40,935 nucleotides of DNA from Desulfobacteraceae bacterium (GTDB lineage Bacteria; Desulfobacterota; Desulfobacteria; Desulfobacterales; ETH-SRB1), in NCBI GenBank assembly GCA_014237365.1, contig JABZFQ010000286.1, positions 1-40,935 on the forward strand, given 5' to 3'. A program made the translations under genes and the position numbers. This document shows, in pieces, positions 4,027 through 39,319 of this stretch. A model generated the notes under the pieces. It made no database searches and had not been told where the DNA came from. It saw only the letters and a list, made by a program, of their open reading frames with translations. The stretch's first letter is position 1. The number at the start of each line of letters is the position of its first letter.

Positions 4027-4221
4027 AGAAACGTGGACGAAATAATTTCCCCAAGTAGGCGCATAGATTTGGGTCAAATTTGTTCGATCTCAAATCACAA
4101 AAGTTGATGGAATAACTTACCTATTTCGATATTTTTGGGATTTGAGCCTGGATTTGAGATTTGGCAAAGGTGGCCTGAATCTGTGATGCATAATTGGGGA
4201 AGTTATTTCGTCCCCGTTCCT
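4027..4221 (-). repeat. 184-bp palindromic family copy (long subtype with internal insertion)
   Basis: AGAAACGTGGACGAAATAATTTCCCC ... GGGGAAGTTATTTCGTCCCCGTTCCT. Confidence 0.95.
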
Positions 4222-5024
4222 AATTGTTCATTGGCGTAAGACAGATTTTTTAGTGTTATAGGATCATCCGGTTTTATCCATAGGGACTGCTCAAAATATT
4301 CAATAGCCTGTTCCAATAACCCCATACGCCCATAGATTATACCGAGATTAGAAAGGGCTTCATGATAATCAGATTTTATATTCAATGCCTTTCTGTAATA
4401 GTGTATTGCCTTCTCTGAGAGTTCTTTTTCATCATTGATCACACCAAGATTATAATAAGCCTGAGCCATATCAGGAGCTATTTTAAGAGCTTGTTTGAAT
4501 TTATCCAGCGCTGCTGCTGTTAATTTTTTTTTGTGCAAAGCAGATCCAAGACTGACCAATAGTAACGGGCTGTCAGGCCTTAACGCAAGAGCCTTTTTAT
4601 AATAATAAATAGCTGTATCAAATCGCCTGTTTTTTGCATATACATTTCCCATAAAATGACTAACTTCAACAGATTGCGGCGCTATCTTTAAGGCATTCCC
4701 ATATTGTTCAATTGCATCCCTGATTCTTCCTTTTTCCTCATAAATTCGTCCTATATTAAGATATGCTTTTTCTGCGCGTGGATTTAACCTTAGCGCCTGC
4801 CTGAATTCTATTAGCGCTTTATCAAAATCTTTATTATTAAAAAGGGCAAAGCCACGATTATTATGTGTTCTATATTTATAAGAGGATTTGTTTAAACAAT
4901 CGGTCCAAAGAGTAAGATTATCTTTCCAGATAAAATTGCGCTGATACCCAGCAGTACCAAACACCGCCACAAGACCCGCAACCACCAGAAACTCAATATG
5001 CAGATTTAGTCTCAGTTGTTTCAT
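4203..5024 (-). CDS. TM-anchored TPR protein (C-terminal module of TMTC type)
   Basis: N-terminal TM then YQRNFIWKDNLTLWTDCLNKSSYKYRTHNNRG followed by multiple TPRs; C-terminal LGTGTK-stop encoded by repeat terminus. Confidence 0.85.
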   Translation of the reverse strand: MKQLRLNLHIEFLVVAGLVAVFGTAGYQRNFIWKDNLTLWTDCLNKSSYKYRTHNNRGFALFNNKDFDKALIEFRQALRLNPRAEKAYLNIGRIYEEKGRIRDAIEQYGNALKIAPQSVEVSHFMGNVYAKNRRFDTAIYYYKKALALRPDSPLLLVSLGSALHKKKLTAAALDKFKQALKIAPDMAQAYYNLGVINDEKELSEKAIHYYRKALNIKSDYHEALSNLGIIYGRMGLLEQAIEYFEQSLWIKPDDPITLKNLSYANEQLGTGTK

Positions 5025-5045
5025 TTAAACTCTCCATTCTACGCT

Positions 5046-5561
5046 CTACGGATGACCGGGAATTGATGGCATTGTTCCTTTTATGCCCTTAACAAGCTTC
5101 TTCCATTGTTGGCCAGAACCAAGCATCCTGGCAATCCTCATCTCTTTGAAGGCCATATCATATAGTCCTTTTGAGCCATAGGCAATGCCAAGGTTGTAGT
5201 GGGCATCCGCGTTGCGGGGGCTCAACTGAATGGCATGCTTGAATTGGGTTATGGCGCTGTCCACATTTCCTTTGTCAAAATAACATATACCGAGATTGAC
5301 ATAGGGGTAAGGATATGCAGGATCAATGTTGATAGCAAGTTGATGATGCTTTACGGCGTCGTTGATAAGTCTGCTTTTATATTTGGCAATTCCCATATAA
5401 TCATGAGCCCTGGCCTTGCCCGGAGATTTTTTTACAACATCCGACCAGAGGGAAAGATTATCTTTCCATGCAAAATTCCGCTGATATGTGGCACCAGTGA
5501 ATAACAGCACAAGACTTACCAGTACGACGGATTCTATATATATTAATCGTTTTTGTGTCAT
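5046..5561 (-). CDS. TM-anchored TPR protein, paralog of neighbours
   Basis: MTQKRLIYIESVVLVSLVLLFTGATYQRNFAWKDNLSLWSD + TPRs. Confidence 0.85.
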   Translation of the reverse strand: MTQKRLIYIESVVLVSLVLLFTGATYQRNFAWKDNLSLWSDVVKKSPGKARAHDYMGIAKYKSRLINDAVKHHQLAINIDPAYPYPYVNLGICYFDKGNVDSAITQFKHAIQLSPRNADAHYNLGIAYGSKGLYDMAFKEMRIARMLGSGQQWKKLVKGIKGTMPSIPGHP

Positions 5562-5706
5562 GGTCTATAGCATGAAATCTTCTATAAATTTTTCGTAATC
5601 GTTCACCACAGAAACTGCAGTACACAGAGCAAACTATTTTATTTGTCACTTAATTTCTGCTGAAGAACCGTATTTGCAGATCTTCGCTCTCAATTATGAA
5701 GTTTGC

Positions 5707-6330
5707 TTACTCTTTCCGGCTTGCATGTATTTGAAAGAGCAGGTTGCCAATTTTGGCCCGGGCCTGAGCATCATCCGGCCTTAAGTGCAGATATTTTTGA
5801 AATTCAAAAATCGCTTTATCAAATATCCTTTTTCGTTCATAAGCCATGCCCAAATTCCAGTGTGGCTCCGGCGAATCCGGCTTAATGCTCATGGCCATTT
5901 TGTATTTTTCTATAGCCTTGTTTATGTGGCCCATTTTAAGATAGGTATTGCCCAGATTATCAAGAGCTTCTAAAAAGCCAGGCTTGATGGTAAGCGCCTG
6001 TTGGTAAGCGTCTGTTGCGTCATTGAACATGCCTTTTTTTTCATAAACTACACCCAGATTATAATATGTCTTTGCATAGGGATGTACAGGATTGATTTTA
6101 ACAGCCATCTTGTATTCAACCATGGCTTGATCCAAAAGGCCCTTTTTGAAATAAGAATTGCCTATATTCACATGTGGCCGATCCTTATTAGTGGATTTTA
6201 TGACCGCGTCCGACCACAGGGTTTCTTCTGTTTTCCATACGAAATTCCGCTGATACGCAACAGTACCAAATAACAGCACAAGACTTGCCAGTACGACAGA
6301 TTCTATATATATTAATCGATTTTGCATCAT
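5707..6330 (-). CDS. TM-anchored TPR protein, paralog of neighbours
   Basis: MMQNRLIYIESVVLASLVLLFGTVAYQRNFVWKTEETLWSD + TPRs. Confidence 0.85.
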   Translation of the reverse strand: MMQNRLIYIESVVLASLVLLFGTVAYQRNFVWKTEETLWSDAVIKSTNKDRPHVNIGNSYFKKGLLDQAMVEYKMAVKINPVHPYAKTYYNLGVVYEKKGMFNDATDAYQQALTIKPGFLEALDNLGNTYLKMGHINKAIEKYKMAMSIKPDSPEPHWNLGMAYERKRIFDKAIFEFQKYLHLRPDDAQARAKIGNLLFQIHASRKE

Positions 6331-6390
6331 AATTTATAGCAGGAAATTTTTTACCTTCACCCTCACCTCGACTCTCTCCCCTTTTCGCGC

Positions 6391-7569
6391 TTACGTTTCT
6401 GTCCCGGCCGTGTTTCCGTCCCGCTTCAAACTGGATATTTTACTGACAAGCAACGCCGCAAAAATGGCAAAACCTATTGATGGAAGATAAAGGCGATGTT
6501 CAAAGATCACATCATAAATTACTATAAAGCTGGATGTAACTGAAATGGTAACAAAAAACCAGATAATGGCGAATGAAAGCAGCTTTGCCCGGCGATATGC
6601 CCGGAGGCCAAACCCTGCGATGGCGGTAAGAAGGATGAAAAAAAGAACTGTTGTAAAATTCAGATGCATTGTAATTGGCCAGTCATAGTCCAGGTTGAGA
6701 TTTACAGGGATAAATAACAGCTTAATATAGTATGGAATAACATGCAATTGTGTCATAAAATACTGAAAAGAGGTAATAGATTCACCAAAGGGCATCTGTA
6801 CCCCTTTGGCATAATCAAATGAAACAAACTTTTGCAGCCCGGATGCGCTCAGGTAAATGGCGATACCTATGGTGCAGAACATAGCCAGATGGACATTGCA
6901 GTGGCCTTTCAGGATCTTCCAATCCCCATCCGATATAAAGTAAAAATCGTAGATCAAAAGCATTAAAGGTAGAGTGGCAACTATCTGTTTGGTTGCCATC
7001 CCAAGGCATGATGCGAAAAAAGCTCCAACAAAGAGCGCTAAGGTCTCAGCTCCCTGCTCTCTTATCTTTGTCTCAAAGGCTTTAATAAAAAGAAATAGTG
7101 AAAGCAAATAAAAGGTTGTAGCCAGTACTGAAGATCGACTGATAATATACGTAACAGCCTGGGTTTGAACAGGATGTGCAATGAAAATTAAAGACGCATA
7201 AAGAGCAATCCTGTAAGCACGTTCTCCGTATTTTTCTTTAACCGAGGTGAAGTTGGCTGTCTTAAAAAGGATAAAATAGAGCATGATGCCATTTGAGATA
7301 TGCAGCAGCAGGTTGACAAGATGATAACCAAAAACATTTAGTTTTCCAAAATAATAATTAACCGCCAATGTAATGTCTAATATCGGACGATTAGAGGAAG
7401 AAAAAATTTCTTTTAAGTCAAATCTATGGATAGCGTAGTTTTCAACAATAGCATGCTGGTCGTCAAAGTGAAAAGAGCAGTCAAAGCTGTTAGAGTAAAT
7501 AACACCGGCTATGGCGGAAATCAAAAAAATTGCAAGAAAATGTTTTTGGATATTTGACAAACCGACCAT
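6391..7569 (-). CDS. Polytopic membrane protein, TMTC/DUF1736-like glycosyltransferase-type N-terminal module
   Basis: Many hydrophobic segments; FHFDDQHAIVEN near N-terminus, HPVQTQAVTYIISRSSVLATTFYLLSLFLFIK, and terminal EHRLYLPSIGF motif typical of TMTC-like proteins. Confidence 0.75.
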   Translation of the reverse strand: MVGLSNIQKHFLAIFLISAIAGVIYSNSFDCSFHFDDQHAIVENYAIHRFDLKEIFSSSNRPILDITLAVNYYFGKLNVFGYHLVNLLLHISNGIMLYFILFKTANFTSVKEKYGERAYRIALYASLIFIAHPVQTQAVTYIISRSSVLATTFYLLSLFLFIKAFETKIREQGAETLALFVGAFFASCLGMATKQIVATLPLMLLIYDFYFISDGDWKILKGHCNVHLAMFCTIGIAIYLSASGLQKFVSFDYAKGVQMPFGESITSFQYFMTQLHVIPYYIKLLFIPVNLNLDYDWPITMHLNFTTVLFFILLTAIAGFGLRAYRRAKLLSFAIIWFFVTISVTSSFIVIYDVIFEHRLYLPSIGFAIFAALLVSKISSLKRDGNTAGTET

Positions 7570-7588
7570 GTGCGAAATCTCCTTTGGT

Positions 7589-7686
7589 TAGGTAAGCTAT
7601 TCCTTCAACTTTTGTGATCTGAGATCAAACAAATTCGACCCAAATCTGTGCGCCTGCTTGGTGAAGTTAATTCGTCCACGTTCCTA
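7589..7686 (+). repeat. 184-bp palindromic family, right half only
   Basis: TAGGTAAGCTATTCCTTCAACTTTTGTGATCTGAGATC...GTTAATTCGTCCACGTTCCT. Confidence 0.9.
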
Positions 7687-7730
7687 ATTCAGTGTAATTT
7701 AAGTGAAAATCCGTGGTGAACTATTACGGT

Positions 7731-8435
7731 TTATCCAAAAAAAGTTAATAAATACATTTTGTTTGATATAAGAAACAGGCCGACAAGAATAAGAAAAATA
7801 CCTGCAAAAATATTTATATAATTTAAAATCTTAGATGCTTTTTTGATAAATTTAAGCATAAAATTAACAAATATAGACACCAAAACAAAGGGCATTGCCA
7901 ATCCCGCAGAATATGCTGCAAGAAGAATAACTCCCTGCCATACATTCTCCTGATTGCCGGCAAGAACAAGTATTGACCCTAGTAAAGGACCTACACAAGG
8001 GCTCCAGCCAGCGGCAAAAGCCATACCAATTATAAAAGGCCCCAGAAAATGCAGTGGTTTTTTAACTATGTGAATCCGTTTATCATGATAAAGACGACGG
8101 ATGCGAATTAAGCCGGTTAAATGCATCCCAAATATTATTATTAAAATACCACCCGTTATTCTTATAAAATTACTGTACTTGTATATGATATTTCCAAGCA
8201 ACGACGCCGAAGCTCCCATAAGAACAAAAACAAAAGAAAAACCTAAAACATATGATACAGTAGATAAAAAAACTTTTCTTCTAATTTCTGCATTACAGTC
8301 TGTGGTCAACTCTTCTATGGAGAAACCCGTTATAAAAGTAAAATACGATGGAATAATTGGCAGAATACAAGGAGAAAAAAAAGAAAGAAGTCCTGCAAAA
8401 AAAGCTGCCGGATATGTTATCGTCTCAACAAACAT
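7731..8435 (-). CDS. ccdA: Cytochrome c biogenesis protein CcdA (DsbD transmembrane family)
   Basis: YPAAFFAGLLSFFSPCILPIIPSYFTFITG and AFAAGWSPCVGPLLGSIL motifs. Confidence 0.93.
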   Translation of the reverse strand: MFVETITYPAAFFAGLLSFFSPCILPIIPSYFTFITGFSIEELTTDCNAEIRRKVFLSTVSYVLGFSFVFVLMGASASLLGNIIYKYSNFIRITGGILIIIFGMHLTGLIRIRRLYHDKRIHIVKKPLHFLGPFIIGMAFAAGWSPCVGPLLGSILVLAGNQENVWQGVILLAAYSAGLAMPFVLVSIFVNFMLKFIKKASKILNYINIFAGIFLILVGLFLISNKMYLLTFFG

Positions 8436-8451
8436 AGTTTAATCCCCTCAA

Positions 8452-9303
8452 CTACTGACTTAATTCTTTTGAGCGCCTTGCGGCTGCAGCTATAGCTTCT
8501 ATTAAATTTTGTTTAACCCTGTTTTTTTCTAAAACCTTGAAAGCCGCTTCAGTGGTTCCTCCGGGAGAAGTCACCTTCCGGCGCAAAATTCCAGGCGATT
8601 CATTGCTTTCTTCCATGAGTTTAATGGCCCCCTGTATAGTTGATAGTGTAAGCATGGCGGCTTTATCCGGCTCCAGTCCGACTTTGATACCTCCCTCTAT
8701 CATAGCTTCAGCAATATAAAAAACATATGCGGGACCAGATCCGGAAAGAGCGGTAACTGCATCCAGATCTTCTTCTTTAAATTCAACTACTTTGCCTGTG
8801 GCCTCCAAGATTATCTTTATTTTTTCAATATCTTCCGGTCTGGCATATTTGTTGGCACTCATTCCGGACATTCCTGCTAAAACCAGGGCTGGTGTGTTTG
8901 GCATTACTCTTATTATCGGCAATCTTTCTATGGACCCATTATCAAGAGAATTGTAAAGTAAATTTTCAATTTTACGCAAAGTAATTCCTGCTGCAATAGA
9001 AACAACTATTTTTCGATTTGATATCCGGTATCCTTTATGCTCTGAAATTTGTGAAAGAACCTGATATATATGTTGAGGTTTAACTGCAATAACTATAATT
9101 TCGCATTCTGAAAAAACTTTAAAATTATTTTGCATTACAGAAATACCATAAGTCTTTTTAAGAACATCAAGCCGTTTTTCACTGATATCACTGGCATCAA
9201 TCATTGACGGAGAAAAAATTCCAGTTCGAATAAGAGCTCCCACAAAAGCCTCCCCCATGTTTCCGGCACCAATAAAACCAATTTTCTTGTTAATTATCGA
9301 CAC
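8452..9303 (-). CDS. proC: Pyrroline-5-carboxylate reductase
   Basis: KIGFIGAGNMGEAF, IRVMPNTPALV, ALSGSGPAYVF, VTSPGGTTEAA. Confidence 0.96.
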   Translation of the reverse strand: MSIINKKIGFIGAGNMGEAFVGALIRTGIFSPSMIDASDISEKRLDVLKKTYGISVMQNNFKVFSECEIIVIAVKPQHIYQVLSQISEHKGYRISNRKIVVSIAAGITLRKIENLLYNSLDNGSIERLPIIRVMPNTPALVLAGMSGMSANKYARPEDIEKIKIILEATGKVVEFKEEDLDAVTALSGSGPAYVFYIAEAMIEGGIKVGLEPDKAAMLTLSTIQGAIKLMEESNESPGILRRKVTSPGGTTEAAFKVLEKNRVKQNLIEAIAAAARRSKELSQ

Positions 9304-9330
9304 ACTGCCTCCTTAAATTTTAAAGACCGT

Positions 9331-9413
9331 TCACAGTTAACAGTTCAAGGGTTCAAGGTTTAGCAAGCAATGAAAGTGTTCAAGGCAACCATCCGCGAAC
9401 CGTGAACCGTTAC
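9331..9413. repeat. GGTTCAA / ACCGTGAA heptamer hairpin with conserved loop AGCAATGAA...GGCAACCA
   Basis: TTCAAGGGTTCAAGG ... AGCAATGAAAGTGTTCAAGGCAACCA ... GAACCGTGAACCGTTA; same layout at 18652-18752. Confidence 0.7.
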
Positions 9414-9415
9414 TT

Positions 9416-9598
9416 AGGAACGTGGACGAAATAACTTCACCAACTATGCATCACAGCTTCAGGCCGCCTTTGTCCGATCTCAGATCACAAAAATATTGAA
9501 ATAGCTCGCTATTCCTTCAATTTTTGTGATCTGAGATCGAACAAATTCGACCCAAATCTGTGCGCCTACTTGGGGAAGTTAATTCGTCCACGTTCCTT
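9416..9598 (+). repeat. 184-bp palindromic family, full-length
   Basis: AGGAACGTGGACGAAATAACTTCACC...TTGGGGAAGTTAATTCGTCCACGTTCCT; GCTCGC centre. Confidence 0.97.
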
Positions 9599-9774
9599 AT
9601 TTTTTGATATTGTCTATAGTAATCTACTTCACTTATACTTTTCTACGACCGCACCTTTGATGTGTCAATGATTTTGCTTGAAATTTCTTGACTTAATCTT
9701 TAAGAATATATTTGATTTTTTATATATTTTCTTGATATAAATCTGATAAACTTGTCAAAAGTCGAAAATTGGGA

Positions 9775-9835
9775 GAAATTAAAATAGAAATTGGGAAAAA
9801 CAGTAAAAAGCATGAAGGCCAAATTTCTAATTTCA
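9775..9835 (-). repeat. Second palindromic family (GAAATTAGAAAATAGAAATTGG... type), partial
   Basis: Contains AAAATAGAAATTGGGAAAAACAGTAAAAAGCATGAAGGCCAAATTTCTAATTTC, matching the reverse complement of 34086-34169. Confidence 0.75.
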
Positions 9836-9864
9836 ATATTCCATGAACGCTTACATTAATAATT

Positions 9865-9965
9865 ATCAGAAATTTACAAACTCATTTTTACGTGACATTA
9901 ACTGGCTGTGCGTGAGCGGATAATCTTTAAAAAGCTAAAGTGTTACGAGTTTGTAAATTTCTGAT
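9865..9965. repeat. 101-bp element with perfect 19-bp terminal inverted repeats
   Basis: ATCAGAAATTTACAAACTC (9865-9883) / GAGTTTGTAAATTTCTGAT (9947-9965). Confidence 0.88.
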
Positions 9966-10149
9966 TAGGAACATGGACGAATTAACTTCCCCAAACAGGC
10001 GCACAGATTTGGGTCGAATTTGTTTGATATCAGATCACAAAAGTTGAAGGAATAGCTTACCTATTTCAATATTTTTGTGATTTGAGATCGGACAAAGGCG
10101 GCCTGAAGCTGTGATACATAGTTGGTGAAGTTATTTCGTCCACGTTCCT
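9966..10149 (-). repeat. 184-bp palindromic family, full-length
   Basis: AGGAACATGGACGAATTAACTTCCCC...GTGAAGTTATTTCGTCCACGTTCCT. Confidence 0.97.
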
Positions 10150-10176
10150 TATAGTAAATGAAAGGCTCCTGCATTT

Positions 10177-10476
10177 ATGTATATAATTGGATATCTGTTA
10201 ATGGCAATCGCAAAGGTTTTTGACCTTGTTTTACTTCTATTCATGTGGATTGTTATAGCAAGAGCAGTGCTGTCCTGGGTCAATCCGGATCCTTTCAATC
10301 CTATTGTTCGTTTTATCCATAATGTTACAGAGCCTGCTTTATATCGCGTTCGCGCATTCATACCCGTTAGTTTCGGAGGTATTGATTTCTCTCCAATTAT
10401 TGTCTTGCTCGGAGTGATCTTCTTGCGAACCTTTGTTATAAGCAGCTTAATAAGACTGTCTGCTAATTTATTATAA
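10177..10476 (+). CDS. YggT family membrane protein
   Basis: MYIIGYLLMAIAKVFDLVLLLFMWIVIARAVLSWVNPDPFNPIVRFIHNVTEPALYRVRAFIP. Confidence 0.92.
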   Translation: MYIIGYLLMAIAKVFDLVLLLFMWIVIARAVLSWVNPDPFNPIVRFIHNVTEPALYRVRAFIPVSFGGIDFSPIIVLLGVIFLRTFVISSLIRLSANLL

Positions 10477-10478
10477 TA

Positions 10479-10792: not shown

Positions 10793-10808
10793 ATATAGGT
10801 GGGATATA

Positions 10809-11321: not shown

Positions 11322-11334
11322 ACTGGAATAGCAA

Positions 11335-12524: not shown

Positions 12525-12708
12525 AGGAACGTGGACGAATTAACTTCCCCCACTATGCATCACAGCTTCAGGCCGTTAAAGTCCGATCTCAAATCCCAAA
12601 AATATCAAAATAGGTAAGCTATTCCATCAACTTTTGTGATCTGAGATCAAACAAATTCGACCCAAATCTATGCGCCTGCTTGGGGAAGTTAATTCGTCCA
12701 CGTTCCTT
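12525..12708 (+). repeat. 184-bp palindromic family, full-length
   Basis: AGGAACGTGGACGAATTAACTTCCCCCACTATGC...GGGGAAGTTAATTCGTCCACGTTCCT. Confidence 0.97.
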
Positions 12709-13995: not shown

Positions 13996-14178
13996 AGGAA
14001 CGTGGACGAATTAACTTCCCCAAGTAGGCGCATAGATTTGGGTCGAATTTGTTTGATCTCAGATCACAAAAGTTGAAGGAATAGCGAGCTATTTCAATAT
14101 TTTTGTGATTTGAGATCGGACAAAGGTGGCCTGAAGCTGTGATGCATAGTTGGGGAAGTTATTTCGTCCACGTTCCTT
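13996..14178 (-). repeat. 184-bp palindromic family, full-length
   Basis: AGGAACGTGGACGAATTAACTTCCCC...GGGGAAGTTATTTCGTCCACGTTCCT; GCGAGC centre. Confidence 0.97.
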
Positions 14179-14200
14179 AGGAACGTGGACGAATTAACTC
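14179..14200. repeat. Abutting terminus fragment of a second 184-bp family copy
   Basis: TAGGAACGTGGACGAATTAACT directly after the previous copy, then unrelated sequence. Confidence 0.85.
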
Positions 14201-14289
14201 GCTTTAGGGTGTAACTATTGATAATTCAGTATAATTATGTGAAAATCCGTGGTGAACTATTACAAAAAACCAAATAACAGGCAAAAATT

Positions 14290-14982
14290 ATGGAAGTTAT
14301 ATGCAAACAGTGTCAGAGCAAATTCAAAATTCCGAATGAAAAGATCCCAAAAGGAAAAATTTTTTCGCTTACCTGCCCAAAGTGCAATAATAAAATTTCC
14401 ATAGACACCCGGCCAGTTGCTTCTCCATCACCCGAAAAGACCCCTGCCGTATCCGCAAAACCAAAACCTGGCCGGGAAAAGACAATATTCGACGAGGTAG
14501 TTTCCGGCACTTATAACGCTTCCGAAAAGCCTTTTGATTTTGTGGAAGAGGGTGTAAAAACAGCACTTTTGTGCGAATCTGACCCAGACATCAGAGCTAA
14601 GATCAGAATGGCTTTGGAAAAAATTAAATATAATACCATAGAACCAAAGTCGGCCGTTGAGGCTCTCAAGCAGATGCGCTTTCATGTTTTTGATCTGGTG
14701 ATGCTAAACGAATTGTTCGACACTCAGGATCCTGATAAGAATGATGTCCTTAAATACATGGCTCAACTTGCTATGGACACGAGGCGCAATATCTTTTTGG
14801 CCCTTGTCACCAACCGCTTTCGCACCATGGACAGCATGATGGCCTTCAACAAAAGTGTCAATATCATTGTCAACGTAAATAATGTTGATGAAATGCAAAA
14901 AATCCTCAAGAGTGGTGTAGCCGATAATACTGAATTTTATTACGTATTTAAGGAGTTGATAGCCAAAACCGGCAATGTCTGA
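14290..14982 (+). CDS. MJ0042-type zinc-ribbon protein with degenerate receiver-like domain
   Basis: MEVICKQCQSKFKIPNEKIPKGKIFSLTCPKCNNKISID; C-terminal REC-like fold pattern (ALLCESDPDIRAKIRMAL ... VFDLVMLNELFD). Confidence 0.7.
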   Translation: MEVICKQCQSKFKIPNEKIPKGKIFSLTCPKCNNKISIDTRPVASPSPEKTPAVSAKPKPGREKTIFDEVVSGTYNASEKPFDFVEEGVKTALLCESDPDIRAKIRMALEKIKYNTIEPKSAVEALKQMRFHVFDLVMLNELFDTQDPDKNDVLKYMAQLAMDTRRNIFLALVTNRFRTMDSMMAFNKSVNIIVNVNNVDEMQKILKSGVADNTEFYYVFKELIAKTGNV

Positions 14983-20297: not shown

Positions 20298-20491
20298 AGG
20301 AACGGCGACGAAACAACTTCCCCAACTATGCATCACAGCTTCAGGCCGCCTTTGCCAAATCTCAAATCCAGGCTCAAATCACAAAAATATTGAAATAGGT
20401 AAGCTATTCCATCAACTTTTGTGATCTGAGATCGAACAAATTCGACCCAAATCTGTGCGCCTACTTGGGGAAGTTAATTCGTCCACGTTCT
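20298..20491 (+). repeat. 184-bp palindromic family, long subtype
   Basis: AGGAACGGCGACGAAACAACTTCCCC...TCAAATCCAGGCTCAAATCAC...GTTAATTCGTCCACGTTCTT. Confidence 0.95.
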
Positions 20492-20854: not shown

Positions 20855-21041
20855 ATACCACCAGCCCTTTCAATAAACACCTTGACATGCTTACATATAG
20901 CATTATTTTTTGTTCAAACTTCCGGCCCTGAAAAAGTGTGAAAATAACATATAGATTTTCAGATAATTAATTTCACAAGGCCAGAAGGAGGAAGGCGTAT
21001 TAGTTATACATCAAGAACTGATAACTCAGTGAAATTATTTA

Positions 21042-21177
21042 GTAACGTGGACGAATTAACTTCCACAAGTAGGCGCACAGATTTGGGTCAGATTTGTTTG
21101 ATCTCAGATCACAAAAGTTGAAGGTGGCCTGAAGCTGTGATGCATAGTTGGGGAAATTATTTCGTCCACGTTCCTTA
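21042..21177 (-). repeat. 184-bp palindromic family with internal deletion of the tip
   Basis: AGTAACGTGGACGAATTAACTTCCAC...GTTGAAGGTGGCCTGAAG...CGTCCACGTTCCT; central hairpin missing. Confidence 0.95.
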
Positions 21178-21884: not shown

Positions 21885-22067
21885 AGGAACGTGGACGAAA
21901 TAACTTCCCCAAGTAGACGCATAGATTTGGGTCAAATTTGTTCGATTTCAAATCACAAAAGTTGAAGGAATAGCAAGCTATTTCAATATTTTTGTGATTT
22001 GAGATCGGGCAAAAGTGGCCTGAAGCTGTGATACATAGTTGGGGAAGTTATTTCGTCCCCGTTCCTT
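21885..22067 (-). repeat. 184-bp palindromic family, full-length
   Basis: AGGAACGTGGACGAAATAACTTCCCC...GGGGAAGTTATTTCGTCCCCGTTCCT; GCAAGC centre. Confidence 0.97.
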
Positions 22068-24066: not shown

Positions 24067-24249
24067 AGGAACGTGGACGAATTAACTTCCCCAACTATGC
24101 ATCACAGCTTCCGGCCGCCTTTGTTCGATCTCAAATCTCAAAAATATTGAAATAGGTAAGCTATTCCATCAACTTTTGTGATCTGAGATCAAACAAATTC
24201 GACCCAAATCTGTGCCCCTACTTGTGGAAGTTAATTCGTCCACGTTCCT
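24067..24249 (+). repeat. 184-bp palindromic family, full-length
   Basis: AGGAACGTGGACGAATTAACTTCCCC...GTGGAAGTTAATTCGTCCACGTTCCT. Confidence 0.97.
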
Positions 24250-26301: not shown

Positions 26302-26363
26302 TTAACCTAAATTGGGTTGGATAAAGAAGTGTTTTATGAAAATTTATTGTTTAGGGTTCGGTA

Positions 26364-26547
26364 GAAACGTGGACGAATTAACTTCCACAAGTAGGCGCAT
26401 AGATTTGGGTCAGATTTGTTCGATCTCAGATCACAAAAGTTGATAGAATAGCTTACCTATTTCAATATTTTTGTGATCTGAGATCGGGCAAAGGTGGCCG
26501 GAAGCTGTGATGCCTAATTGGGGAAGTTATTTCGTCCACGTTTCTTA
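26364..26547 (-). repeat. 184-bp palindromic family, full-length
   Basis: AGAAACGTGGACGAATTAACTTCCAC...GGGGAAGTTATTTCGTCCACGTTTCT. Confidence 0.96.
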
Positions 26548-27836: not shown

Positions 27837-27855
27837 AGGAACGAGGACGAAATAA
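27837..27855. repeat. Terminus remnant of 184-bp palindromic family
   Basis: AGGAACGAGGACGAAATAA. Confidence 0.7.
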
Positions 27856-28092: not shown

Positions 28093-29499
28093 GTGAGCCG
28101 TAAACCATTAGGAACGTGGACGAAACAACTTCCACAACTATGCATCACAGCTTCAGGCCGCCTTTGTTCGATCTCAGATCACAAAAATATTGAAATAGCT
28201 CGCTATTCCATCAACTTTTGTGATCTGAGATCAAACAAATTCGACCCAAATCTGTGCGCCTACTTGCGGAAGTTATTTCGTCCACGTTCCTTACCAATAT
28301 ATTTATATTTCGTTCCGCTATGCTGGTTTTTGCTGACCTTTCAAATTCAAAATCTCCATGCTGAAAACCTGTGTAGTGTGGCAAATCTTATTGGCAATCA
28401 GGATGCTATTTTTGTCGCGGATCACCAGGGCAGAATTATGGTTTCCAAAAATGCCGACAAAAAGCTCATTCCTGCTTCAACTCTAAAAATCCTTACCTCT
28501 TTAGTAGCAATGCACTATCTGGGTAAGGATTACAGATTTACTACTGAATTCTACCTGGATAACGATTCAAATCTTAAAATAAAAGGATATGGAGATCCGC
28601 TGCTGACATCTGAAATTTTGGAGGAAATATCCAAAGCACTTGGCTCAAGGCTTGATGCAGAGCATAAAAAGATTAAAGATATTATTTTAGATGATTCATA
28701 TTTCAAGCAACCCATTATAATTCCTGGAATCAGCCCATCATCACAGCCCTATGATGCACCAAATGGGGCGCTTTGCGCCAACTTCAATACTGTTTACTTC
28801 AAGTGCCTTGAAAACGGCAAATATGTCAGCGCAGAAGAACAAACGCCCCTGCTGCCGTTCGCATTAAGAAAAGTTAAAAAATCAAAACTAACCATGGGAA
28901 GAATAGTGTTCTCCCATAAAAAAAGTGAAAACACACTTTACTTCGGTCATCTCTTTAAATACTTCCTTGAAAAACAAGGCATTAAATCTAATGGCAGTAT
29001 AAGACTTGGAAGAGTTAATAAAGAAAATGACAGACTGGTATTTAAGTATGTATCCGGTTTTTCAATAAAGAAAATCATATCAAAACTTCTAGAGCACTCA
29101 AATAATTTCATAGCTAATCAACTACTCATTTCCTCTGGTACAAAACTTTACGGCCCGCCCGGCACCCTTGATAAAGGTGTTCTTGCAGCATTAAATTACA
29201 CAAAAAACGTACTTAACATTGACAACCTCTCCATTATTGAGGGCTCAGGGATATCAAGACAAAACAGGATCTCTACAAATAGCCTGCATAAAATTCTTAA
29301 AAAATTCGAGCCTTACCATGAGCTGATGCACAAATCGAGCAGAGAGTTTTATAAAACAGGAACTCTTGACGGCATCAGTACAAGGGCTGGATATATAAGA
29401 AACGAAAAAGGTGGATTGTATCGTTTTGTTGTGCTGATAAATACACATGGAAAATCAGCGGAACTTATAATGAATAGGCTCTTGAAGGTATTAAAATAG
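28093..29499 (+). CDS. D-alanyl-D-alanine carboxypeptidase / PBP4 (DacB-like); start uncertain
   Basis: KKLIPASTLKILTSLVAMHYLG, NNFIANQLL, FYKTGTLDGISTRAGYIRNEKG; first ~65 codons are repeat sequence. Confidence 0.85.
   Translation: MSRKPLGTWTKQLPQLCITASGRLCSISDHKNIEIARYSINFCDLRSNKFDPNLCAYLRKLFRPRSLPIYLYFVPLCWFLLTFQIQNLHAENLCSVANLIGNQDAIFVADHQGRIMVSKNADKKLIPASTLKILTSLVAMHYLGKDYRFTTEFYLDNDSNLKIKGYGDPLLTSEILEEISKALGSRLDAEHKKIKDIILDDSYFKQPIIIPGISPSSQPYDAPNGALCANFNTVYFKCLENGKYVSAEEQTPLLPFALRKVKKSKLTMGRIVFSHKKSENTLYFGHLFKYFLEKQGIKSNGSIRLGRVNKENDRLVFKYVSGFSIKKIISKLLEHSNNFIANQLLISSGTKLYGPPGTLDKGVLAALNYTKNVLNIDNLSIIEGSGISRQNRISTNSLHKILKKFEPYHELMHKSSREFYKTGTLDGISTRAGYIRNEKGGLYRFVVLINTHGKSAELIMNRLLKVLK
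28110..28292 (+). repeat. 184-bp palindromic family, full-length, read through by dacB-like ORF
   Basis: AGGAACGTGGACGAAACAACTTCCAC...GCGGAAGTTATTTCGTCCACGTTCCT. Confidence 0.97.
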
Positions 29500-30390: not shown

Positions 30391-30573
30391 AGGAACATGG
30401 ACGAATTAACTTCCCCAAGTAGGCGCACAGATTTGGGTCGAATTTGTTTGATCTCAGATCACAAAAGTTGATGGAATAGCTTACCTATTTCAATGTTTTT
30501 GGGATTTGAGATCGAACAAAGGCGGCCTGAAGCTGTGATGCATAGTTGTGGAAGTTGTTTCGTCCACGTTCCT
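30391..30573 (-). repeat. 184-bp palindromic family, full-length
   Basis: AGGAACATGGACGAATTAACTTCCCC...GTGGAAGTTGTTTCGTCCACGTTCCT. Confidence 0.97.
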
Positions 30574-30928: not shown

Positions 30929-31111
30929 AGGAACGTGGACGAAATAACTTCCCCAACTATGCATCACAGATTCTGGCCGCCTTTGTCCAGTCTCAAATCC
31001 CAAAAATATTGAAATAGGTAAGCTATTCCATCAACTTTTGTGATCTGAGATCAAACAAATTCGACCCAAATCTGTGCGCCTGCTTGCGGAAGTTAATTCG
31101 TCCACGTTCCT
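30929..31111 (+). repeat. 184-bp palindromic family, full-length
   Basis: AGGAACGTGGACGAAATAACTTCCCC...GCGGAAGTTAATTCGTCCACGTTCCT. Confidence 0.97.
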
Positions 31112-31146
31112 AACTACTCGACTAAAGTTGCAAAAATTCAGATACG

Positions 31147-31698: not shown

Positions 31699-31816
31699 AG
31701 GAACGTGGACGAAATAACTTCCCCAACTATGCATCACAGCTTCAGGCCGCCTTTGTCCGATCTCAAATCCCAAAAATATTGAAATAGGTAAGCTATTCCA
31801 TCAACTTTTGTGATCT
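31699..31816 (+). repeat. 184-bp palindromic family, right third deleted at asd stop
   Basis: AGGAACGTGGACGAAATAACTTCCCC...CATCAACTTTTGTGATCT then asd 3' end. Confidence 0.95.
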
Positions 31817-31817
31817 C

Positions 31818-32840: not shown

Positions 32841-32979
32841 AAAATTTGTCTCCGTTTTTTTATCAGTCTTGGTTCTAACTTCGGCCAATAACAACTCTGC
32901 TTGATATACTCAATTGTTGATTGAAGGTATTCTATTAATTTTATAACAAAAAAACAGAGCGAAGCGATTAAACAAATCA

Positions 32980-34056
32980 TCAGTCATTAATCATCTTTAT
33001 ATAATTTACAACCAGATCTCCGACCTCTTTTGTAGTATATCCCATCCTGCCGGCAGCTACGTCTTTTAAATCATCACGCAACACTTTTATAACGCTCTCT
33101 TCGACTATAGAGGCTGCCTCAAGCTCACCGATTGCGACAAGCATAATATTAGCCGCCATTATGGCTGCTATTGGATTTATTACCTGCTTTCCAGTATACT
33201 TAGGAGCAGAGCCTCCAATAGGTTCGAACATTGAAACGCCATCGGGATTTATATTTCCTCCGGCGGCTATACCCATTCCTCCCTGTATAATTGCCGCCAG
33301 GTCGGTGATTATGTCTCCGAACATGTTATCCGTCACAATAACATCGAACCATTCCGGATTTTTAACCATCCACATACATACTGCATCAACATGTGCATAA
33401 TCCTTTTCTATATCAGGATACTCTTCTCCAATCTCGTTAAAAACTCTTTCCCAAAGATCAAAAGCAAAAGTAAGTACGTTGGTCTTTCCGCAAAGGGTCA
33501 GTCTTTTGGCTTTATTGCGTTTCCTGCAATATTCAAACGCGTATCTGATACATCTTTCGACACCTTTACGTGTATTTATTGACTCCTGCACCGCAACTTC
33601 ATCTGCAGTTCCCCGCTTTAAGCAACCGCCTGCACCGGCATAAAGTCCCTCAGTATTTTCACGAACAACCACGAAATCAATATCCTCAGGGCCTTTGTCT
33701 TTCAAAGGAGTTTTTACTCCTTCATATAACTTGACGGGTCTTAAGTTAATATACTGATCAAAATGAAATCTGAGTTTTAAAAGAATACCTTTTTCAAGAA
33801 TTCCAGGTTTAACATCCGGATGACCTATGGCACCTAAATATATTGCATCAAAGTTTGCCAGTGACTCAAGTACGCTATCCGGCAAAATTTCTCCGGTTGC
33901 CTTGTAATGATCACCGCCTAAATTATAATTGGTAAATTTCAGTCTAAAACCGCATTTGTCTGCCACGGTCTCCATAACCTTGATTCCTTCTGCTACGACT
34001 TCCGGCCCTGTACCATCTCCTGGAATTACAGCTATTTTATATTCTTTTGACATCAC
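32980..34056 (-). CDS. leuB: 3-isopropylmalate dehydrogenase-like isocitrate/isopropylmalate family protein
   Basis: YKIAVIPGDGTGPEVVAEG, VVRENTEGLYAGAGG, DNMFGDIITDLAAIIQGGMGIAAGGNINP. Confidence 0.88.
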   Translation of the reverse strand: MMSKEYKIAVIPGDGTGPEVVAEGIKVMETVADKCGFRLKFTNYNLGGDHYKATGEILPDSVLESLANFDAIYLGAIGHPDVKPGILEKGILLKLRFHFDQYINLRPVKLYEGVKTPLKDKGPEDIDFVVVRENTEGLYAGAGGCLKRGTADEVAVQESINTRKGVERCIRYAFEYCRKRNKAKRLTLCGKTNVLTFAFDLWERVFNEIGEEYPDIEKDYAHVDAVCMWMVKNPEWFDVIVTDNMFGDIITDLAAIIQGGMGIAAGGNINPDGVSMFEPIGGSAPKYTGKQVINPIAAIMAANIMLVAIGELEAASIVEESVIKVLRDDLKDVAAGRMGYTTKEVGDLVVNYIKMIND

Positions 34057-34085
34057 AACTCCTGTATAAATAAATACGGAACATT

Positions 34086-34169
34086 GAAATTAGAAAATAG
34101 AAATTGGAAATTTGGCCTTCATGCTTTTCTACTGTTCTTCCAAATTTCCAATTTCTATTTTCTAATTTC
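34086..34169. repeat. Perfect 30-bp inverted repeat, 24-bp loop (second palindromic family)
   Basis: GAAATTAGAAAATAGAAATTGGAAATTTGG (34086-34115) / CCAAATTTCCAATTTCTATTTTCTAATTTC (34140-34169). Confidence 0.95.
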
Positions 34170-34187
34170 AAGCCGTAAACCGTTACG

Positions 34188-34973
34188 TTATAGAGAATTC
34201 GAAATCTGTTTATCAATTTTGTGGATTTCAGCTTTTTCCTGCTTTGAATGTCTCATAAGCCTTATAGTCTTGAAGGGACCTGAAATTAGATATACAACTC
34301 CTAAAAGGAACAGGGCAATGGATGGCTGTGCTGCTATAAAAATCAAAATCAGTATAATTGCAACAAGAACATTGAAATTCATCTTTCTAAACAGCTCAGG
34401 TTGTTTAAAACAATCGTATTTTATGGTGCTGACCATTAAAAAAGAAAGAATATAAAGCATTATAAGGGGTAATCTACAGTTAGAAGTACCTGCTATGCCG
34501 AATTTATTATAGAACAAAACAGCGGTAGCAGCCATACCGGCAGCAGCCGGTATCGGAAGGCCTGTAAAGTAATCGCTGTGCACTGTATCAACACGTGAAT
34601 TGAAACGTGCCAGGCGAAGAGCCCCGCAAATCATAAATAAAAATGCAGCCAGCCAACCAATCCTTCCCATGGGTTTAAGAGCCCATAAATACATCATCAC
34701 CCCTGGAGCAAGTCCAAAGGATACGAGATCCGCAAGAGAATCGTATTCAACACCAAATTTGCTGGTGGTATTAGTAGCCCTGGCGATTTTGCCATCAAGC
34801 ATATCAAATACCACGGCGATAATAATAGCTATAGCCGATGTAACATATTTACCCTCTATTGAAGCAATAATGGCATAGAATCCGCAGAAAATATTTAAAG
34901 ATGTAAATATGTTAGGCAGAATGTATATTCCGCGCCTCGGCTTGTCTTTATTAGTTCTTTTCTTTCTTTTCAT
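34188..34973 (-). CDS. pssA: CDP-diacylglycerol-serine O-phosphatidyltransferase
   Basis: NIFTSLNIFCGFYAII, FDMLDGKIARATNTTSKFGVEYDSLADLVSFGLAP. Confidence 0.95.
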   Translation of the reverse strand: MKRKKRTNKDKPRRGIYILPNIFTSLNIFCGFYAIIASIEGKYVTSAIAIIIAVVFDMLDGKIARATNTTSKFGVEYDSLADLVSFGLAPGVMMYLWALKPMGRIGWLAAFLFMICGALRLARFNSRVDTVHSDYFTGLPIPAAAGMAATAVLFYNKFGIAGTSNCRLPLIMLYILSFLMVSTIKYDCFKQPELFRKMNFNVLVAIILILIFIAAQPSIALFLLGVVYLISGPFKTIRLMRHSKQEKAEIHKIDKQISNSL

Positions 34974-35643
34974 GTCTTAAATATCCCAAAATAGATGTGC
35001 CGGCTTTAACCTTATCCCCAACTGTAACATTAAGTTCCGCATCATCGGGCAGATAAATATCAAGTCTTGATCCAAAACATATCATACCCAAGCGTTCACC
35101 GCGGGCTACCCTGTCCCCCTTCTGCAACTTGCATATAATACGCCTTGCGATAAGCCCTGCAATCTGAACAACACATATTTCCCGGCCGTCTCCTGTCTTA
35201 ATAAAAATCGCATTATGTTCATTATCCCTTGAGGCCTTATCCAGGTTTGCGGAAAAAAATTTTCCAGGATAATAACTTACTTTTTCAACTTCCCCTTCAT
35301 GCGGGATACGATTTACATGCACATTAAAAACCGACATAAAAACGCTTATCTTCTGACACCTGCCTTCAAAAAAAGGACTGCTGTCCTCTTGCCCGGCTAT
35401 AATAACTTTTCCATCAGCCGGTGATACAATAGCATCGTAATTTTTCGGTATAACCCGGTCAGGATCCCTGAAAAAATAGCAAATGGAAAAAGTAACCGCA
35501 AGACCTGTCAGCGCGGGAACAGTCAGCCCCAAAAGGGCAAAAATACCTGTAGTAAAGGCCGAAGCAAATATCAAAGGATATCCAGCTTTTGCTACAGGAA
35601 ATGCGACTTGACTCGGAGGATCAGACCAGAAGTATTTATTCAT
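34951..35643 (-). CDS. psd: Phosphatidylserine decarboxylase (archaeal/short type)
   Basis: FRDPDRVIPKNYDAIVSPADGKVI, GERLGMICFGSRLDIYLP. Confidence 0.95.
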   Translation of the reverse strand: MNKYFWSDPPSQVAFPVAKAGYPLIFASAFTTGIFALLGLTVPALTGLAVTFSICYFFRDPDRVIPKNYDAIVSPADGKVIIAGQEDSSPFFEGRCQKISVFMSVFNVHVNRIPHEGEVEKVSYYPGKFFSANLDKASRDNEHNAIFIKTGDGREICVVQIAGLIARRIICKLQKGDRVARGERLGMICFGSRLDIYLPDDAELNVTVGDKVKAGTSILGYLRHEKKEKN

Positions 35644-35689
35644 TTGATATATACCTTTCTTAAGTTTATATCAATATCAATTAATAATG

Positions 35690-36364
35690 TCAATGATTAC
35701 AAAATGAGGATTTTCGTATATAATTAGGTGTAAATAAGCTGTTATCATCTGTATCATTTGTATCAAATTTAGCCATACTTATATTAGCCACAGTAGAAGC
35801 CCTGATTGTGTTTTGATAGAGTGGTGCGAAATGTGCCAAATCACCTATCTGATCTTTAATTTTATTTTGATAAATTTTAGCGCCGTCACCAACAAACAAA
35901 CATGGCTCATTTATATCACAAACAGCCTGTACAGGACTAATCGCCTGTTCCCTAAGTTCCTTTTTCAAATGTCCGTTTTCAAACCTGTATCGTGAAAAAT
36001 ACACCTCTTCTTTACGAGCATCTAATAACGGGCTAACGAGATATGAAGAAAAGCAGCACTGCATGGCAAGAGAATCAAGGCTTGAAACACCCACAACAGG
36101 TTTGCCGGATGCCATAGCAAAACCCTTTATCGAACTAATACCTATTCGCAGACCGGTAAAGCTCCCTGGCCCTCTTGTTACCGCAAATCCATCTATTTCA
36201 AATACAGTTAACCCTGACAAATGCAATACTGTATCTATCATCTCCATTAAATGTTTTGAATGGGTTTGTTCGATAAATAGAGTAGTCTCGGCTATAATTG
36301 ATTCTTTCTCAACAATGGCAACGCTACAACTTTTTGTAGCTGTATCTACAGCGAGTATTCTCAT
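35690..36364 (-). CDS. tsaB: tRNA threonylcarbamoyladenosine biosynthesis protein TsaB
   Basis: MRILAVDTATKSCSVAIV, VTRGPGSFTGLRIGISSIKGFA. Confidence 0.94.
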   Translation of the reverse strand: MRILAVDTATKSCSVAIVEKESIIAETTLFIEQTHSKHLMEMIDTVLHLSGLTVFEIDGFAVTRGPGSFTGLRIGISSIKGFAMASGKPVVGVSSLDSLAMQCCFSSYLVSPLLDARKEEVYFSRYRFENGHLKKELREQAISPVQAVCDINEPCLFVGDGAKIYQNKIKDQIGDLAHFAPLYQNTIRASTVANISMAKFDTNDTDDNSLFTPNYIRKSSFCNH

Positions 36365-36472
36365 AATTTATCGCATAAAGCACGGTCGATGCTGCAATGA
36401 AGTTTTGTTAAATTCTCTTTTACTGCAACAAAGCGCTTGAACATGTATACAGATCGATATGTGGTCTTTCCC

Positions 36473-36520
36473 ACTTTCTCACTTTCTCACTTTCTCACTT
36501 TCTCACTTTCTCACTTTCTT
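36473..36520. repeat. 8-bp tandem repeat ACTTTCTC x5 plus one variant unit
   Basis: ACTTTCTCACTTTCTCACTTTCTCACTTTCTCACTTTCTCACTTTCTT; covers lon stop codon. Confidence 0.95.
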
Positions 36521-38914
36521 TGCCCCACTGCCCTTAAGCTTAAAGCCCTCAATTACAACTGGCAGTACCTCATCCATATGTTTTACAGGAATGAATTTGA
36601 TTTTACGCTTTACATTTGAGGGAAGTTCTACAATATCCTTTTTATTCTTTTCAGGAATTAGTACAGTACAAATTCCAGCTCTCAAAGCACCCAAAGCTTT
36701 TTCTTTCAAGCCTCCTATCGGAAGGACTCTTCCTCTAAGCGTAATTTCTCCAGTCATAGCAATATCCTTGCTGACCGGCTTATTGGTCAGAACAGAAATG
36801 AGGGCGGTAGCCATAACAATTCCTGCAGAAGGACCATCTTTTGGTATCGCACCGGCCGGGACATGTATGTGCACATCAAAATTCTCAAGAAAATTTTCTT
36901 TTAATCCAAAAGAAGAAAGATTTGCTCTGGCGTAACTTACAGCAGCGCGGGCAGATTCCTGCATTACCTCCCCGAGCTGCCCGGTAATAATCAAGTCACC
37001 CTTGCCTTGCATTAAAGATGCCTCCACATACAGGACCTCTCCACCGGCATGAGTCCATGCAAGCCCGATAGATACTCCAACCTGACTCTCCTGCTGATCC
37101 ATCTCAGGATAATATTTGTGTACACCTAGATACTTATGCAAATTTGTCCTTGTAATATTAAAAGGACCTTTTTCTTTTTCAGCTATCTTACGTGCCACCT
37201 TGCGACATATTGCCCCAAGCTCACGTTCAAGATTCCTCAAACCTGCCTCAGATGTGTATTCATTTATAATCTGGAGCAATGCATTCGGACTGATGGAAAT
37301 ATTCTTTGGCTTTAAGCCGTTTTCCTTAATCTGACGCGGCAGAAGATGCATCTCAGTAATAACCTTCTTTTCCTCCTCAGTGTATCCTGAAAGATTAATA
37401 ACTTCCATTCTGTCAAGAAGTGCTGAAGGGATTGTATCTGTTAAATTGGCGGTAAGTATAAACATTACCTTGGAAAGATCAAAAGGTAAGTTCAGGTAGT
37501 GATCACTGAATTCAAAGTTTTGCTCCGGATCAAGAGCTTCTAATAAAGCAGAAGAAGGATCGCCTCGAAAATCAGAGCCCACTTTGTCAATCTCATCCAT
37601 CATAAAAACAGGGTTGTTTGAGCCGCATTGCTTCAAACTCTGTAGTATACGACCAGGCATTGACCCTATATATGTGCGGCGATGGCCTCTAATTTCTGCT
37701 TCATCTCGAATTCCACCGAGAGAAATACGGACGAATTTACGCTTCATCGCATTGGCAATAGCTCTCCCCAAAGAAGTCTTCCCCACGCCGGGAGGCCCGA
37801 CAAAACATAGAATAGGACCTTTCATTTTTGGGTTTAGCCTGCGAACACTCAAATATTCAAGTATCCGATCTTTCACCTTGTACAGAGCGTAGTGATTCTT
37901 GTCCAATATTTTTTTCGCATTCAATATATCAATCACATCTTTGGTTTTTTTATCCCATGGCAGATCAACCAGCCAGTCCAGATAACTCCGTACAACTGAA
38001 GCTTCAGCAGAATCAGGATGCATCTGTTCCAGGCGCTTTAACTGCTTTGCAGCCTCTTTCCCAGCCCCCTTGGGCATTCTGGAACTCTTGATCCTTTTCT
38101 TGTAATCATCTATCTCTTCAGCTTTTTCATCATGCTCGCCCAGTTCCTTGTGGATAGCCCTAACCTGCTCTCTTAAAAAATAATCGCGCTGGCTCTTAGA
38201 AATTTCATCCTTGACATCAGATTGAATCCTTGCCTGTATCTCAGAAAGTTCAACTTCACGTGAAAGCAGGTCATTAACTTGTTTAAGACGTTCCACAGGA
38301 TCTACCAGTTCAAGCAGAACCTGTGACTCCTCAATTTTCAGTCTAAGATTAGATGATACAAGATCTGCCAGCTTGCCTGGATCATCTATGCTTTCCAGAA
38401 TGGTACCAACATCGCCGCTTAATTCTCCTCGAAAAGCCAAAATCTTCTCTGAATTCTCTCGTACATTCCTCATCAGAGCTTCAATCTCCATATTGACCGC
38501 TTCCGTCGTATTTTCTTTAATAAGTTCAGTCTTTACGCGATAATAAGCTTTGTTCCTGAGATATGTCACAATTTTTGCCTTGGCTACACCTTGCACAAGG
38601 GCTTTTACACTGCCGTCAGGCAGTTTCAACATCCGCAGAATCCGACCAACTGTTCCAATCGTGTAAATTTCATCCTTTTTAGGATCCTCAACACTCGAAT
38701 TCTTTTGCGTAACCAACAATAAATAGCCGTCTTTTATTACGGCTGCTTCCACCGCTCGCACTGATTTCTCACGACCGACGAAAAGAGGAATAAGCATCCC
38801 TGTAAAAATCACAACATCCCGTATAGGCATTAAAGGAAGAATCCCGGGTATTTTTATATCCCTTTCATCTTCTTCAATAATACTTATCAAATCATCTTTG
38901 TCTGTTTCACCCAT
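36503..38914 (-). CDS. lon: ATP-dependent protease Lon
   Basis: GPILCFVGPPGVGKTSLGRAIANAMKRKFVRISLGG, PKDGPSAGIVMATALIS. Confidence 0.98.
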   Translation of the reverse strand: MGETDKDDLISIIEEDERDIKIPGILPLMPIRDVVIFTGMLIPLFVGREKSVRAVEAAVIKDGYLLLVTQKNSSVEDPKKDEIYTIGTVGRILRMLKLPDGSVKALVQGVAKAKIVTYLRNKAYYRVKTELIKENTTEAVNMEIEALMRNVRENSEKILAFRGELSGDVGTILESIDDPGKLADLVSSNLRLKIEESQVLLELVDPVERLKQVNDLLSREVELSEIQARIQSDVKDEISKSQRDYFLREQVRAIHKELGEHDEKAEEIDDYKKRIKSSRMPKGAGKEAAKQLKRLEQMHPDSAEASVVRSYLDWLVDLPWDKKTKDVIDILNAKKILDKNHYALYKVKDRILEYLSVRRLNPKMKGPILCFVGPPGVGKTSLGRAIANAMKRKFVRISLGGIRDEAEIRGHRRTYIGSMPGRILQSLKQCGSNNPVFMMDEIDKVGSDFRGDPSSALLEALDPEQNFEFSDHYLNLPFDLSKVMFILTANLTDTIPSALLDRMEVINLSGYTEEEKKVITEMHLLPRQIKENGLKPKNISISPNALLQIINEYTSEAGLRNLERELGAICRKVARKIAEKEKGPFNITRTNLHKYLGVHKYYPEMDQQESQVGVSIGLAWTHAGGEVLYVEASLMQGKGDLIITGQLGEVMQESARAAVSYARANLSSFGLKENFLENFDVHIHVPAGAIPKDGPSAGIVMATALISVLTNKPVSKDIAMTGEITLRGRVLPIGGLKEKALGALRAGICTVLIPEKNKKDIVELPSNVKRKIKFIPVKHMDEVLPVVIEGFKLKGSGAKKVRK

Positions 38915-39137
38915 TGTTTCACCTGTTTGACCTTAGTTTCGCTTCGCTCACAATTGATCGAGTAGTTGATTGGTCGAGTCGTTCAAGGACCCTTATAAGT
39001 CGACGACTCAACCATTTTCCCACTCAACTCAGGTTTAACGATATCTGTAAATTATGTTTAAAATGTGTTAATCTAACAATATATAACATTATTTTTCTTT
39101 GACAATATCAACCTTGATTTTTTATAAAACAAACCTA

Positions 39138-39319
39138 AGGAACGTGGACGAAATAACTTCCCCAACTATGCATCACAGCTTCAGGCCGCCTTTGTTTGAT
39201 CTCAGATCACAAAATTATTGAAATAGCTCGCTATTCCTTCAACTTTTGTGATCTGAGATCAAACAAATTCGACCCAAATCTGTGCGCCTACTTGGGGAAG
39301 TTATTTCGTCCACGTTCCT
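39138..39319 (+). repeat. 184-bp palindromic family, full-length
   Basis: AGGAACGTGGACGAAATAACTTCCCC...GGGGAAGTTATTTCGTCCACGTTCCT; GCTCGC centre. Confidence 0.97.

Follow-up and report, generated by a model that had tools for sequence, protein, structure and literature searches.

What is the short palindrome that recurs throughout contig JABZFQ010000286.1 of a Desulfobacteraceae bacterium, a sulfate reducer of sediments (assembly GCA_014237365.1), and why does it remain palindromic? The window analyzed here is that whole stretch of 40,935 nt, in which a first-pass annotation, made from the letters alone, had described 13 full-length and four truncated or deleted copies of a ~184-bp repeat together with three terminus remnants, in both orientations. 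BLAST with the consensus from that annotation, by which the initial copies were collected, and an independent repeat listing recovered exactly this set. Copies, damaged copies and isolated termini together make up 7.1% of the window (~7% had been estimated), and identity to the consensus reaches 97–99%. Orientation B denotes the strongly folding strand, and a copy is called + below when B lies on the + strand; read on that strand, seven full-length copies are in orientation A and six in orientation B. The best overall explanation, which we hold with good confidence, is a miniature inverted-repeat transposable element (MITE) that is moved in trans and whose folded B strand matters for its propagation.

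The unit, its target duplication and its distribution

The repeat is real, though slightly shorter than first described. The element proper, GGAACG...CGTTCC, measures 181 bp (most full copies are 180–181 bp) and has terminal inverted repeats of ~24 bp; the terminal A and T of the original 183/184-mer are part of a duplicated 3-bp target, TWA. In ~705 kb of the host genome, intact copies are flanked by TTA/TTA (37), TAA/TAA (33) or mixed triplets (15; Fisher p=1.5e-9), and rarely by matched odd triplets (TTG/TTG, TAT/TAT). Shortened copies with matched ACA/ACA and ATA/ATA flanks also occur, as do internally deleted 66–68-bp versions with matched flanks. These deleted forms lie at different sites (L015, L045, L051, L156 and others) and several share the joint CCCCAAATCTGTGCGCC; either they were remobilised or they reflect recurrent deletions at a CCCAA microhomology. 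No open reading frame (ORF) of at least 90 aa lies within any copy, in agreement with the earlier view that neither an ORF nor a transposase is encoded.

Sister species that are ~80–96% identical to the host in this region provide empty sites for three to four of the window insertions in total. At the full-length copy between grpE and dnaK (21885–22066, +), the window reads ACTTA-element-TTATATATAATTAC and genome G001 reads ACTTATATATAATTAC, with a single TTA. Empty orthologous sites with one triplet copy are likewise found for the internally deleted copy upstream of grpE (21041–21175, +; TTA in G001 and G006) and for the full-length copy between dnaK and a U32 peptidase gene (24067–24249, −; empty in G002 and G006). 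The full-length copy that separates tilS from the SRP RNA gene (20298–20490, −), which carries a small insertion, is missing from the orthologous site in G001, while the alignments in G003 and G006 are less clear. Empty sites carrying one triplet, together with the 3-bp duplication, indicate that the copies are transposition products.

The 23-nt end occurs 572 + 482 times, at one mismatch or fewer, in the 3.49-Mb metagenome-assembled genome (MAG) of the host. These ~1,050 termini, compared to 0 occurrences of a reversed-pattern control in the same MAG, show that the repeat is no assembly artefact of the window. Scaling from sampled contigs gives ~740 copies in all, ~400 of them full-length. 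The element covers 2.9% of 20 contigs chosen irrespective of the repeat and 4.1% of the whole sample, which is enriched in copies. Beyond the host, carriage is patchy: the end is present in 27 of 390 genomes of the order, from about ten families and with 1 to 250 matches outside the host, and a phylum-wide draw added three genomes outside the order. Named carriers are Desulfobacterales and Deltaproteobacteria MAGs, including Eth-SRB1 genomes; the viral contigs and phages searched contain no match. That one 180-bp design is carried so patchily, yet in high copy number, suggests that the family spread horizontally and then expanded in bursts. The recent amplification that had been proposed is supported by the identity of copies to their consensus, the empty orthologous sites and the hundreds of copies.

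The TWA duplication, the empty sites, the copy number and the patchy recurrence therefore define a new family of non-autonomous MITEs. Its identity as a MITE is firm: the element is short and noncoding, with terminal inverted repeats, a fixed-length target duplication, many dispersed copies and insertion polymorphism. Rfam gave no match to it above the gathering score (the SRP RNA was the sole match in the window), and a literature search, which was not exhaustive, found no earlier description.

Strand polarity of the hairpin

Almost the entire element is an imperfect palindrome. The first-pass annotation had predicted a single ~90-bp hairpin. Both strands fold far more stably than dinucleotide shuffles, with z-scores of −13 (B strand) and −10 (A strand), but they are not equivalent: the consensus folds at −117.9 kcal/mol on B and at −87.8 kcal/mol on A. 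All of the 207 copies compared fold more stably on strand B, by 27.8 kcal/mol on average, and the same strand is favoured under both the RNA and the single-stranded DNA energy sets. On strand B, each of the eight transition-type mismatches between the consensus arms reads G.U, and none A.C.

Across 50 copies drawn from many genomes, standard pairs account for 97.8% of the cells of 66 pairs. Two-sided changes affect 26 pairs, versus 10.4 in shuffles and 5–11 in slid registers, and the covariation score is 0.190 versus 0.121; compensatory change thus conserves the stem. These changes fall within the arms, outside the terminal repeats; for instance, where the host lineage has TCTCAGATCAC opposite GTGATTTGAGA, G064 has TCTAAAAGTAT opposite ATACTTTTATA, so that the arms covary and are not simply invariant. 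Conserved mismatches nevertheless persist between the arms.

To place the changes we used parsimony on a tree of the copies, those on internal branches being taken as inherited and those on terminal branches as private. An internal-branch change must have occurred in a copy that went on to multiply or was passed on. Our results showed that inherited changes breaking a Watson–Crick pair led to G.U in 73 cases and to A.C in 19 (p=1e-8), while private changes were nearly even (194 G.U vs 168 A.C; p=0.19). The difference between the two ratios is significant (p=5e-6) and came out similarly with three seeds, all four base-change classes agree in direction, and a smaller first copy set had given 49:15 for inherited and 153:123 for private changes. 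Since copies lie in both orientations, the polarity does not come from a mutational bias of the genome.

Versions that fold well on one strand thus seem to be mainly the ones that went on spreading. As the simplest account, these statistics suggest that the folded strand matters when the element propagates. The structural conservation suspected by the first-pass annotation is real, but it seemingly acts on propagating copies. A transposase acting in trans, most likely of the IS5/PIF-Harbinger kind, would cut and paste the element with a 3-nt staggered cut; the folded B strand, as RNA or as single-stranded DNA, would matter during propagation of a copy; and a copy once resident would have no fold-dependent role for the host and would decay freely.

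Several points weigh against this explanation. A tree-free count within the host genome goes in the same direction but is weaker, and it scores compensated pairs as single changes, one side each. Ancestral states come from parsimony on a tree built from the same short sequences. Many events share sites, and counting distinct sites reduces the contrast to 44:17 (inherited) and 63:57 (private). Gene contexts depend on a simple ORF caller. Neither the host genome nor its relatives yielded a transposase gene with these ends, so that the mobiliser is one we infer. Finally, a classical double-strand DDE reaction offers no reason for strand polarity. Spread through a folded single strand, either an element-derived RNA or a strand-specific single-stranded DNA hairpin, despite the DDE-like 3-bp duplication, is an idea we put forward only tentatively; it may extend to ERIC-like elements.

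Alternative explanations and the search for a mobiliser

For an ordinary MITE mobilised by a DDE transposase only the terminal repeats would matter; the palindrome would be a relic of its origin and the polarity a matter of chance in an early ancestor. Target duplication and terminal repeats suffice for such an element, and the 66–68-bp versions with matched flanks fit it, although they may have been deleted after insertion. We consider this account unlikely, because polarity also appears in new inherited changes (73:19) and not just in the common ancestor, because both arms and the 180–181-bp length are maintained in distant lineages of the phylum, and because compensatory changes lie in the arms, beyond the terminal repeats.

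A resident regulatory RNA, which the host would maintain in untranslated regions as a terminator or as a processing site for RNase III or RNase E, would account for a very stable one-strand hairpin and for intergenic placement, and roles of this type have been proposed for Correia and ERIC (reviewed in PMC2229807 and PMC10969869). Placement is indeed almost always between genes, as first reported; of 110 copies, a single one lies within an ORF. Against such a role, the strongly folding strand in co-directional gaps is sense in 28 cases and antisense in 26, convergent, divergent and co-directional gaps are all occupied alike, sister species lack the copies, and private mutations are near-neutral. 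The 28:26 orientation and the near-even private changes make a host function at each site, e.g. termination, unlikely to be the main cause. The function in RNA processing or termination that the first-pass annotation had suggested thus finds no support, and we judge the probability of a resident RNA to be low. One copy, inside a PDDEXK_9-type nuclease gene (L056:14820–15632), contributes part of that gene's reading frame ahead of a stop.

The intergenic hairpins and strand-specific folding of the element recall REP/BIME/REPIN sequences, which are associated with RAYT (Y1, HUH) transposases. Movement by such an enzyme through strand-specific single-stranded DNA hairpins would explain the fold, and the host genome has 11 Y1 transposase (RAYT) matches, one of them within an element copy. 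Y1 transposases are not expected, however, to give the matched 3-bp target duplications that set the element apart, and RAYT flanking is not systematic: seven of the 11 loci have no element copy in the flanks examined and none is symmetrically flanked. The RAYT in contig C270 has distinct ends of its own (TAGGGGTCAAGTC) and simply interrupts a copy. The element therefore does not qualify as RAYT-mobilised, and we hold this origin to be very improbable. At the C270 locus (L186:8500–9760 in G000), the element splits an apparent RAYT gene, and a second RAYT element, with ends TAGGGGTCAAGTC...GACTTGACCCTA, in turn splits the element.

Long palindromes are prone to correction by template switching, in which changes in one arm are copied to the other at inverted repeats. 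This would yield two-sided changes like those observed, i.e. apparent covariation without selection, but it predicts drift to perfect symmetry and no strand preference, yet mismatches are conserved and new inherited ones are strongly polar with copies in both orientations, which makes it the least credible account, and a barely plausible one.

The IS5 family, and the eukaryotic PIF/Harbinger elements with their Tourist-like MITEs, generate a 3-bp TWA/TNA target duplication, and the element shares the 3-bp TWA duplication with MITEs of this kind. We searched 58 genomes with the profiles NF033580 and PF13359, and the host genome with PF01609 and PF13340. No IS5-type transposase flanked by element ends was found in the 58 genomes, and no checked NF033580 or host-genome locus has element ends on both sides. 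A full-length insertion sequence (IS) with the same termini, as envisaged by the first-pass annotation, did not emerge from profile searches, inspection of loose ends or a scan for convergent ends. This absence is not proof, because MAGs are fragmented and multicopy IS are lost from such assemblies.

The scan considered convergent ends 260–4,000 bp apart, and four pairs were read (L056, L171, L186 and L255); three further short pairs are at L153, L155 and L310. None of the four is an autonomous element. At L056 a gene for a probable secreted protein lies between the ends; the L171 pair has a pilB-like gene inside, a poor right end and mismatched flanks, that of L186 is a RAYT within a broken copy, and L255:10080–10636 is a copy with an insert and no long ORF. 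An IS5 remnant in contig C148 (L072) lies next to a loose terminus that does not form its boundary. The interiors next to loose termini are common to other palindromic repeats, not to a transposase. On a plasmid of Desulfosarcina sp. BuS5, a 903-bp segment (L224:2148–3047; NZ_CP087953.1 ~101274–102176) carries a DUF1638 gene between related ends with TAA/TAA flanks; this single case may be a transposase-free passenger cassette.

In G064, five elements alternate with tandemly repeated, weakly Rpn-like nuclease genes (L255:8622–16517). They begin a few nucleotides past the stop codons, the genes vary in QQGMQQG repeat number, and the array looks like a tandem duplication. The hupL MITE of Candidatus Thiomargarita nelsonii also matches hundreds of contigs, without a parental IS and with PD-(D/E)XK genes nearby (PMC4853749), but its 10-bp direct and 19-bp inverted repeats are unlike the element. 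The host genome has only two C-terminal fragments of Rpn-like proteins; we therefore rejected these genes as mobiliser, and the link to nucleases looks incidental.

Copies in the window and related elements

The family had been placed at 4027–39319. Its copies there are real, but the start was set too late, since a damaged copy precedes it at 161–342 (+), with another repeat ending GGTTACACTC in place of its first 13 nt. The copy at 4027–4221 (+) is full-length with a small internal insertion and 85% identical to the consensus over its length. Matched TAA triplets flank the full-length copies at 9416–9597 (−) and 28110–28291 (−), and matched TTA triplets those at 9967–10149 (+), 30391–30573 (+), 30929–31111 (−) and 39138–39319 (−), the last between lon and a prepilin peptidase gene. 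The RNA fold of the copy at 30391 is −98.4 kcal/mol on the + strand and −73.4 kcal/mol on the other. BLAST with the consensus also places full-length copies at 12525–12707 (−) and 13996–14177 (+), the latter abutted by an isolated terminus (14179–14199, +), and at 26363–26545 (+) the end of an adjoining TPR ORF runs into a full-length copy. The remainder are a half copy (7589–7685, −), a truncated copy between greA and asd (31699–31816, −), an isolated 24-nt terminus (2456–2479, −) and a weak 19-nt one (27837–27855, −; E = 0.006). Three adjacent multihaem cytochrome c genes occupy 519–3765.

Other repeats occur at the element ends. A second palindromic repeat (GAGTGTAACCAAAATAGAACAAAG ... CTTTGTTCTATTTTGGTTACACTC) is found next to them or in their place at window 141–161, L183:1–119, L058:14346–14700 and L170:8915–9063. 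In two genomes, a loose 24-nt terminus is immediately followed by a third palindrome family (TATAGACCTTCACATAAATAATTGCACGG...; L057:5355–5550, L096:1–125, L126:5974–6170, L132:4109–4200), which looks as though element ends were its target. All three window copies of a 56-nt repeat (TTAWGTGAAAATCCGTGGTGAACTATTAC; 2493–2548, 7699–7754 and 14235–14290) lie within ~40 nt of an element end, and four of the 12 genomic sites of its core lie within 60 nt of an element, compared with 6% for random positions.

Bacterial MITEs of similar style include Correia, ERIC, RUP and YPAL (PMC2229807, PMC10969869); the present family is distinct from them in sequence, length, target and host. ERIC/IRU (RU-1) of Enterobacteriaceae and Vibrionaceae is likewise a short, intergenic, palindromic MITE with a target duplication, hundreds of copies in some genomes and no known transposase. 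Its definition, 127 bp with TA-containing ends (PMC2229807) and a core sequence, excludes the element, which has 181 bp, a TWA duplication, an unrelated sequence and a host in another phylum. YPAL/RU-2 of Yersinia (~168 bp) shares palindromy, intergenic placement, target duplications and recent mobility seen from empty sites, but is defined by internal repeats and duplications of 3 to 26 bp (PMC2229807), where the element has terminal inverted repeats and 3 bp. Correia/NEMIS (Neisseria) and RUP (Streptococcus pneumoniae) are, like the element, high-copy palindromic MITEs with terminal inverted repeats, and give hairpin transcripts; their ends carry a TA motif and RUP is tied to IS630-Spn1 (PMC2229807); sequence and target differ.

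E. coli-type ERIC copies folded at −51 to −57 kcal/mol on one strand and at −37 to −40 kcal/mol on the other, with 3–5 G.U pairs on the stabler strand versus 0–1. This test covered folding in nine copies from viral contigs that represent about three distinct sequences. The copies tested share with the element an imperfect palindrome stable on one strand, a trait outside the published ERIC definition, and polarity may thus be a feature of the class.

The mobility mechanism of small palindromic elements such as ERIC has been called open in a review (PMC2229807), and the reason why they remain palindromic is not settled. The family described here offers hundreds of copies in one genome and patchy carriage across a phylum, and it is a major load (~3–7% of sampled sequence) in a relative of the Eth-SRB1 sulfate reducers. 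The contrast of inherited and private mutations distinguishes selection acting while copies propagate from selection acting once they are resident, and the same test can be applied to ERIC, Correia and RUP. If spread through a folded single strand were true of this family and of ERIC-like elements, such bacterial MITEs would, as a class, rely on a mobilisation step that has yet to be described.

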